From Anaerolineales bacterium (GTDB lineage Bacteria; Chloroflexota; Anaerolineae; Promineifilales; Promineifilaceae): a stretch of 58,190 nt of DNA. The stretch covers positions 1-58,190 of the forward strand of contig WTJY01000360.1 in assembly GCA_011524645.1 (NCBI GenBank), in the 5' to 3' direction. Position numbers and translations under genes: made by a program. Position 1 is the first letter of the stretch; each line of letters opens with the position of its first letter. Under the pieces are notes generated by a model that saw only the letters and a program-made list of their open reading frames with translations, was not told the DNA's origin and ran no database searches. Shown here piece by piece: positions 37,982 through 40,370 of the stretch.

Positions 37982-39091
37982 CTAATTACTTAATTCAAGC
38001 ACAGCCTGTGCTAATTTTTGTGCCGCATCGGCCGTTTCCAGCGCAGCACATGCAACCGACATTTCTGCCAGCGTCGTATCATTATGAAGCAAATCGACAA
38101 GCAACGGCTGTAATCCGGTCGCAAGCTCTTCATCGTTTAAGCGGATCGCGGCACCGCGATCCGCCAAATAATCGGCATTTACTTTCTGGTAACGCCAAGC
38201 ATGAGGATACGGAACGATGACGGCCGGTAAGCCGAACAGCGGACATTCACCCAACATACTGGCACCACCGCGCGCCACGACTAAATCGGCCGCGCGAAAC
38301 GCCGCCCCCATCTCTTCATGCAAATAGGGGTACGGCCGATAGTTTACTCTTAATTCCGGCGCCAATTGTTGCGCAAATATTTCAATTTTATCCCAAGTCA
38401 ATGTGCCACTGACATGAATCACTTGGGTATCAACCAATAAATCGGGCAAAATCTCCATCAGGGCTTGGTTGATACTCCAAGCACCGCGACTACCACCAAA
38501 CACAAAAAGGGTTTTTCGCTCTGGCTGTAAATCAAATTGAGCCAGTGCTTCTGCACGCGGTCGTTCTGCCCAATCACGTAGCGCCGCCCGCACCGGATAC
38601 CCCGTTTCGACAAATCGTTTCCCTTGGGGCAAATATTCCGTTGTCGCCCCAAATGTGGCAGCCACGCGGGTATTATCCCAGCGCATAATCGTTTTAATAG
38701 CCGAACCCGGTTCAATATCTGGCACAAAAGCGATAGCCGGAATTTGTCGCCATGAGGCGGCTAATGCCACAGGGACGCTCATATAGCCACCGGTCACCAG
38801 CAACACATCCGGCCGGAAACGGGCCATATGACGGCCACTTTGCACCACCGCCCAGCCTAATTTCGCCAGACTCTGCATCTGTTTTATTCGCGAGACACCT
38901 GCGATTGGGCCACCCGTAATCGTTTCTAAACGAATACCGGCACGTGGCACAATGTTTTCTTCCATTTCGCCACGTACCCCCAACCACAAAATATCTTCTT
39001 TAGCGACGCCCAGATCGGCCATTTCGTCGACGGCCGCGAGCGCCGGATAAATTCCGCCGCCGGTCCCGCCGGCGCACACTAAAATGCGCAT
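37982..39091 (-). CDS. murG: UDP-N-acetylglucosamine transferase MurG
   Basis: A 369-residue peripheral membrane glycosyltransferase that adds GlcNAc to lipid I to make lipid II. The N-terminal glycine loop reads GGTGGGIYPALA, whereas the family has a conserved His in GGTGGHxxPA; here it is Gly (codon GGA). The second glycine loop GGSRGAWSIN and the UDP-GlcNAc pocket ARGGASMLGE, VPYPHAWRYQ are present. A strong GGAGG site six bases before the ATG fixes the start. The gene overlaps the end of ftsW by 92 bp. As the only MurG in the cluster it is presumably functional despite the substitution. Confidence 0.9.
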   Translation of the reverse strand: MRILVCAGGTGGGIYPALAAVDEMADLGVAKEDILWLGVRGEMEENIVPRAGIRLETITGGPIAGVSRIKQMQSLAKLGWAVVQSGRHMARFRPDVLLVTGGYMSVPVALAASWRQIPAIAFVPDIEPGSAIKTIMRWDNTRVAATFGATTEYLPQGKRFVETGYPVRAALRDWAERPRAEALAQFDLQPERKTLFVFGGSRGAWSINQALMEILPDLLVDTQVIHVSGTLTWDKIEIFAQQLAPELRVNYRPYPYLHEEMGAAFRAADLVVARGGASMLGECPLFGLPAVIVPYPHAWRYQKVNADYLADRGAAIRLNDEELATGLQPLLVDLLHNDTTLAEMSVACAALETADAAQKLAQAVLELSN

Positions 39092-40370
39092 CAGCGACCT
39101 CCTTATTCATTGTTTGAGGCACCGCTTCCGTAGAAATAACGGTCGGGGTGCGTGGTTCACGGCGCGCCGACGCGCCACCGCTAACAACCGATGGCTGCAA
39201 CGGCATCTGCGGCCGCCTTTCTTCACGTGCTAGCGTTTTACCAATCGCCGCATCGCGCGAAATATTGAGCAAAATCCCTACCGCTACCAGCGTAATCGCC
39301 AATGATGTCCCACCATAGCTTAAAAATGGGATCGGCATCCCGGTAAAGGGAATAACGGCCGTGATCACCGCCAAATTAATCAATGCCTGATAACAAAGCC
39401 AGCAAGTAATGCCCAAAGCGAGTAACGAGCCATAGCTATCCCGCGCATGTTTCGCGGCCAAAAAGCCACGCCACGCCAAAATCACAAAGAGAACAATGAC
39501 AGTCATCGATCCGATAAAGCCTAATTCTTCACCGATCACCGCCATCACCCCATCTGTATGGGCAAAGGGCAACGGCCCAAATTTCTGGGTACTCCGTCCC
39601 AATCCTTCACCAAACCACCCCCCTGTGCCCAGAGCGATCAAGGATTGTTGCACATGCCAGTGCGCTTGGCTCGGGTCCTGCAATGCTGTGGTATAAGCAT
39701 CCACACGGCCGCGTGCATGGGGTAGGGTAAACATCAAAAAGATAAAGGCGGTTCCCCCCACCAAGCCGGCTAATGCGAACTGACGCCAATCCGCTCCGGC
39801 AATAAAAAAGACGGTAAAGCTGGTCAAAGCGATCAATATCGCCGTACTCAAGTCGGGCTGACGCACGATCAACGCGCAGACGGTACCGGTAATCACCGAA
39901 AAGGGTAACAAGCCATACGTGATGTCTTTAATCCGATCCCCTTTGCTCGATAGCCAATGGGCGATATACATAACGGTTGCCAACTTTGCCAATTCGGAAG
40001 GTTGATAAGAGCCGCTGGCTAAACCGCGTACCGCACCCTGTAACTCTTCCCCCGTAAACAAAACAACGCCGAGCAAAACAAAGGTTCCTAATAAAAAGGG
40101 AACAGAAACGCGCCGCAAAATACGATAATCAAATTGCATGATGACCAACATTGCGCTTAAACCCAAACCGGCCGCGACCATTTGCCGCTTAAAGTAATAT
40201 TGGCTGTCATCTTTAAAACGCCAGCCATAATCAAATGTGGTGCTATAGACCATCAGCAGCCCAAAAATGAGCAAAGCGACAACCGTCAACAACATCCAAT
40301 AATCAAATTGGAAGCGCAGGGACGGCCGGATTCGATCGGTTTGACGACGAATTACGTTGATTGTTTCCAT
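39000..40370 (-). CDS. ftsW: SEDS glycosyltransferase FtsW
   Basis: A 456-residue polytopic protein with about ten membrane helices that polymerises lipid II at the septum with the class B PBP. Family marks: YSTTFDYGWRF after the first helix, SYQPSELAKLATVMYIAHWL, RQPDLSTA, FAHTDGVMAVIGEELGF with the key Asp, and the PFLSYGGTSL signature near residue 370. The C-terminal about 85 residues are cytoplasmic and Arg-rich. The last 30 (DAHFSVRRRDRRRN and onward) are encoded by the first 92 bp of murG in another frame. Starts 4 bp after murD ends, so coupled. Confidence 0.93.
   Translation of the reverse strand: METINVIRRQTDRIRPSLRFQFDYWMLLTVVALLIFGLLMVYSTTFDYGWRFKDDSQYYFKRQMVAAGLGLSAMLVIMQFDYRILRRVSVPFLLGTFVLLGVVLFTGEELQGAVRGLASGSYQPSELAKLATVMYIAHWLSSKGDRIKDITYGLLPFSVITGTVCALIVRQPDLSTAILIALTSFTVFFIAGADWRQFALAGLVGGTAFIFLMFTLPHARGRVDAYTTALQDPSQAHWHVQQSLIALGTGGWFGEGLGRSTQKFGPLPFAHTDGVMAVIGEELGFIGSMTVIVLFVILAWRGFLAAKHARDSYGSLLALGITCWLCYQALINLAVITAVIPFTGMPIPFLSYGGTSLAITLVAVGILLNISRDAAIGKTLAREERRPQMPLQPSVVSGGASARREPRTPTVISTEAVPQTMNKEVADAHFSVRRRDRRRNLSGARGRRRNGRSGRR

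Follow-up and report, generated by a model that had tools for sequence, protein, structure and literature searches.

A Chloroflexota MurG with glycine in place of the histidine described as invariant

The window analyzed here is a 58,190-nucleotide stretch from an Anaerolineales bacterium (contig WTJY01000360.1 of GenBank assembly GCA_011524645.1). On its minus strand it carries a Gly-type murG, the gene for UDP-GlcNAc:lipid I GlcNAc transferase, which runs from an ATG at 39091 to 37982 (37982..39091) and encodes 369 amino acids. Both GT28 Pfam domains were found above cut-off (PF03033, 78.1 bits; PF04101, 99.6 bits). The TIGR01133 score of 224.1 bits lies below the equivalog cut-off of 250.25; some Gly-type relatives, such as those at loci L150, L158 and L159, do exceed it. 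The gene's position in the dcw cluster is that of a MurG, since it adjoins ftsW (39000..40370, minus strand, above its NCBIfam cut-off). The neighboring murB, murC, murD, mraY and murF each score over their own NCBIfam cut-offs, which indicates that the lipid II pathway is present; for the frame between murG and murC, an NCBIfam search yielded no name. Only one murG was found in the query genome (5.8 Mb, 534 contigs, 94.8% complete). A TIGR01133 search of that genome found no second, His-bearing MurG, the other match being a weak fragment (E 0.0018), so that no His copy is seen that could act as a backup.

The predicted structure supports the identification. An AlphaFold2 model built from 72 sequences, the window protein and 71 homologues, had a mean pLDDT of 96.3 and a pTM of 0.93, and residues 11-20 had a pLDDT of 95. 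The closest structures to this intact GT-B fold were those of MurG: ranks 1-4 were taken by 3s2u, 1nlm, 1f0k and 7d1i, with Z from 38.3 to 35.0, followed by the next structure at 30.0, and Foldseek also placed MurG on top.

The glycine loop of this protein, GGTGGGIYPALA, comprises residues 8-19 (39035..39070, minus strand). Its codon 13, GGA (39053..39055, minus strand), encodes glycine and aligns opposite H18 of E. coli MurG (taken from NC_000913; H19 in the numbering of some papers), so that GGTGGH18 of the E. coli enzyme corresponds to GGTGGG in the window MurG. The loop therefore departs from the published motif GGTGGH with its invariant histidine. The initial annotation had recognized this replacement, and had located it in the right stretch, although its interval of 39040-39075 is shifted by about five bases from the loop itself.

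It had also called the change unexpected in an essential enzyme, close to the catalytic center, and the published structures and descriptions of the histidine agree with it on both counts. In the available excerpts of the literature, this residue is called invariant (PMC8993221), and a review lists T16, H19 and Y106 as invariant in other MurG homologues (PMC4790310). The conserved residues are placed near the donor (PMC8993221), and H15/H19 is described as very close to UDP-GlcNAc and pointing to the proposed lipid I site (PMC5039524); according to the same excerpts, no lipid I-bound MurG structure has been published (PMC8993221, PMC5039524). Alanine at this position reportedly leaves MurG activity extremely low or undetectable and abolishes complementation (PMC8993221, citing Hu 2003 and Crouvoisier 2007), and in archaeal Agl24, which is related to MurG, the H14A mutant is described as inactive (PMC8993221). 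Our own statement that the histidine is invariant elsewhere is based on these papers, on E. coli and on three MurG sequences from the PDB.

We asked how far the substitution extends among relatives. From 182 loci with a murG match, we left out six proteins under 280 aa and one Gly-type locus (L043) and merged 16 identical-sequence copies, giving 159 rows in which the query and E. coli stand for L001 and L102; leaving L023, L100 and L168 out of the tree gave 156 aligned rows. The loop residue in these, query and E. coli included, was glycine in 77, histidine in 70, serine in six and unreadable in three. Glycine recurred often when murG was read in 30 related genomes and at 44 named loci; the Gly rows span families f1, f29, f47, f49, f54 and f55 as well as named MAGs, and family f1 mixes the two types, with 13 Gly and five His rows. 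The initial annotation had left room for a read error or a peculiarity of one genome, and had proposed examining homologues for the same codon. That comparison shows glycine at the same site in dozens of assemblies, encoded by different codons: in 76 of the 77 Gly rows the codon could be read, and was GGC in 39, GGA in 25, GGG in 10 and GGT in two. Use of all four glycine codons is expected if selection keeps the amino acid. Although the query assembly is a draft in 534 contigs, this recurrence makes it a negligible prospect that the glycine of the window arose by a sequencing, assembly or frame error. The substitution is thus a recurrent natural exception to an "invariant" residue, and larger than the initial annotation had supposed.

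Pattern searches of genomes gave a similar picture. The glycine-loop pattern was matched in 158 of 199 genomes of the class. Among the matches listed, glycine appeared in at least nine from f29, at least six from f1 and at least one each from f47 and f49; the rest of those listed were histidine, except for one extra Arg-coding match in G082, a genome whose other match was histidine. In a survey of 400 genomes of the phylum, using Gly and His patterns that differ slightly before the proline, the Gly pattern occurred in 39 genomes, in 36 of which it lay in a MurG frame. The remaining matches, outside the class in G291, G321 and G402, fell in frames of 32-47 aa that are not MurG. The His pattern occurred in 210 of the 400 genomes, none of them among the 36 Gly-type genomes, and 154 had neither pattern, a group that includes genomes without murG and Ser types. 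Among the coded genomes, glycine was confined to the class; among named loci, L059 (Candidatus Aquidulcis, of the class Limnocylindria by name) has it too, and lies inside the large Gly clade.

The same survey of loci turned up other variation. The six Ser rows (L165, L166, L176, L179, L180 and L182) read GGGSGGS and are a second, independent loss of H18. Single departures from the loop were GGTAGH in L008 (family f5), GGTAGG in L062 and GASGGG in L069. A murG match at 1e-20 was absent from 14 of 111 genomes, among families f62, f63 (one genome), f80, f82, f87, f91 and f94. Loss of dcw genes in Dehalococcoidia is described in the available text of PMC10608941, and may lie behind part of these 14 genomes.

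To follow the history of the residue, trees were built without column 13, a quick one from all 156 rows and a careful one from 98 of them. On both, glycine versus the rest requires at least four changes, which are forced by well supported branches, and in the careful tree the count was four across the 5-95% bootstrap range. A single clade uniting L024 with every Gly row in the careful set was rejected with a p-AU of 1.43e-5, a value weakened by the fact that this group was chosen after the first tree had been seen. L024 itself is a His type nested within a Gly clade. The change counts do not distinguish gain from loss; if histidine is taken as ancestral, parsimony yields three gains of glycine and one return to histidine, in L024. 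Serine is a fifth, separate change in one clade (support 99 in the quick tree and 100/99 in the careful tree).

Because codon 13 lies inside the 92-nt overlap between the end of ftsW and the start of murG (39000-39091), the initial annotation had suggested that codon choice is constrained there. The overlap is real, and many of the loci read have one of 59-128 nt, always in a single phase, although these lengths may be off by threes because start codons were set mechanically; the glycine loop of MurG is thus read in two frames. Overall, ftsW is present at the locus in 135 rows and contains the codon in 96 of them. One locus (L108:319-2592, genome G376) has ftsW and murG in a single open frame of 757 aa, which may be a genuine fusion or may result from an indel in the overlap of that assembly. 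The idea that the overlap forced glycine onto MurG fits the position of codon 13 here and, among the 76 Gly rows whose locus includes ftsW, the 58 in which the codon lies within that gene. However, 17 of these 76 rows have the codon outside ftsW (the remaining one is the fused row), and the histidine codon is also inside ftsW in 38 of 59 corresponding His rows, being outside in 21, E. coli among them. The Gly and His rows do not differ significantly (58:17 vs 38:21, fused row excluded; Fisher p 0.12), and a constraint imposed by ftsW is a highly improbable cause of the substitution.

We then compared the rest of the active site, using E. coli positions that we take to be the invariants tested by Crouvoisier et al. 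In E. coli numbering, the window MurG retains T15, Y105, S191, N198, R260, E268, Q288 and N291, and is changed at H18 (to G), H124 (to F), E125 (to V), N127 (to D) and N134 (to I). Two stretches stand out. FVPDIEP, residues 122-128 (38708..38728, minus strand), replaces H124-E-Q-N127 of E. coli and the next three residues, and WRYQK, residues 299-303 (38183..38197, minus strand), places its glutamine opposite Q288. In all 77 Gly rows, HEQN has become [YF]-x-P-D-x-E and the second stretch reads W-x-Y-Q, ending in the conserved glutamine. D125, E127, W299, Y301, E282, Q302 and N305 of the window protein are present in 77 of 77, as are Q288, N291, E268 and R260 of E. coli. A conserved glutamate, E122 in P. 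aeruginosa, is described as near the GGxGGH motif in the available text of PMC8993221, which would have the replaced loop facing residue 13.

These features extend beyond the Gly rows. D125, E127, W299 and Y301 also occur in each of the 16 His rows that fall within the clade enclosing every Gly row; in the 54 His rows outside it, D125 is found in 44, E127 in 17, and W299 and Y301 in none. Nor are losses of H124 and E125 confined to Gly rows: among the 70 His rows, E. coli included, 17 have the histidine and 10 the glutamate. As D125, E127, W299 and Y301 are fixed in the clade's His rows too, we regard them as a permissive background rather than as partners in the swap. His 258 was considered as a substitute; although 76 of the 77 Gly rows have it, so do 13 of the 16 clade His rows, which leaves it no stronger a candidate than D125 or E127. 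Among the columns compared, no residue was found to switch in step with glycine and histidine, either across the 95-row clade or within family f1.

That last result bears on a simpler explanation, in which H18 is not catalytic in any MurG but tunes acceptor binding, so that glycine or serine costs little and needs no substitute. The repeated changes on the trees, the histidine of L024 within a Gly clade, and the rise of serine in a separate clade that keeps a histidine at the H124 site are all in keeping with this. On the other hand, the mutants of E. coli MurG and archaeal Agl24 are reported inactive or nearly so (available text of PMC8993221), and glycine is seen only together with W-x-Y-Q and PDxE, which suggests that this context is needed. 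We consider a dispensable H18 rather unlikely.

Another proposal is that Gly-type MurG has changed its substrate, using another donor sugar or a modified form of lipid I, and not its mechanism alone. HEQN and N134 have been lost as well, and there is a precedent in the archaeal MurG-like proteins of pseudomurein makers, which more often have D and L at the two conserved positions, a difference that is proposed perhaps to suit a different acceptor (available text of PMC8993221). But the presence of Gly and His types side by side in family f1 would then mean repeated changes of wall chemistry, and Q288, N291, E268 and R260 are kept in every Gly row. A change of substrate is very unlikely.

Instead, we think it reasonably likely, judging from sequence comparison and the predicted fold, that the window encodes a true and functional MurG of an Anaerolineae type within Chloroflexota, one in which the acceptor site does without H18 and the role of that residue would have passed to an acidic loop. 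That so many relatives share the change implies that the enzyme probably works without H18. The nesting of the trees suggests an order of events. First, (Y/F)xPD would have replaced the HEQN loop across much of the phylum; next, the residues leading up to the conserved glutamine would have changed to give W-R-Y-Q in one clade; and solely within the W-R-Y-Q clade would H18 then have given way to glycine, by parsimony in three lineages and with a single reversion to histidine. The diphosphate would still be cradled by the backbone of the glycine loop. The work of the lost imidazole, which may be to hold the lipid I diphosphate or to help deprotonate the MurNAc 4-OH, could be taken over by the facing acidic loop, D125-x-E127, helped by W299-R300-Y301. 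The PDxE loop and the W-R-Y stretch are thus the best candidate substitute for H18. More tentatively, they may form a rebuilt acceptor site of Anaerolineae type that both binds the acceptor and removes its proton, in which case the general base would not be His18 and would depend on lineage.

The variant MurG with glycine for H18 is new; in the titles and abstract openings that our literature search covered, we found no earlier report of a MurG lacking this histidine. MurG is an essential enzyme and a target for drugs, and the occurrence of glycine, histidine and serine at a key position among relatives is a natural experiment on what the histidine does. These data argue that the histidine of GGTGGH is not a defining feature of MurG, and caution against relying on it to recognize the enzyme or to design inhibitors meant for all bacteria.

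Among known systems, the best structural match to the window MurG is that of Pseudomonas aeruginosa with UDP-GlcNAc (3S2U; Z 38.3, rmsd 2.4 over 327 residues), which carries H15 and E122 where the window protein is changed (available text of PMC8993221). E. coli MurG (1F0K and 1NLM, Z 37.3 and 37.5) shares the GT-B fold, and its gene also follows ftsW in the dcw cluster, but with an overlap of 4 nt rather than 92 nt. The Ser-type MurG of Chloroflexota (families f61, f81, f84, f89, f104 and f114) likewise lacks H18, with GGGSGGS in the loop, but differs in forming a separate clade and in keeping a histidine at the H124 site, as HQQD. Finally, the MurG-like GT28 proteins of pseudomurein-making archaea, which we liken to the window MurG by their description in the available text of PMC8993221, are also without the loop histidine and the facing glutamate; they more often have D and L instead, and serve a different wall polymer.
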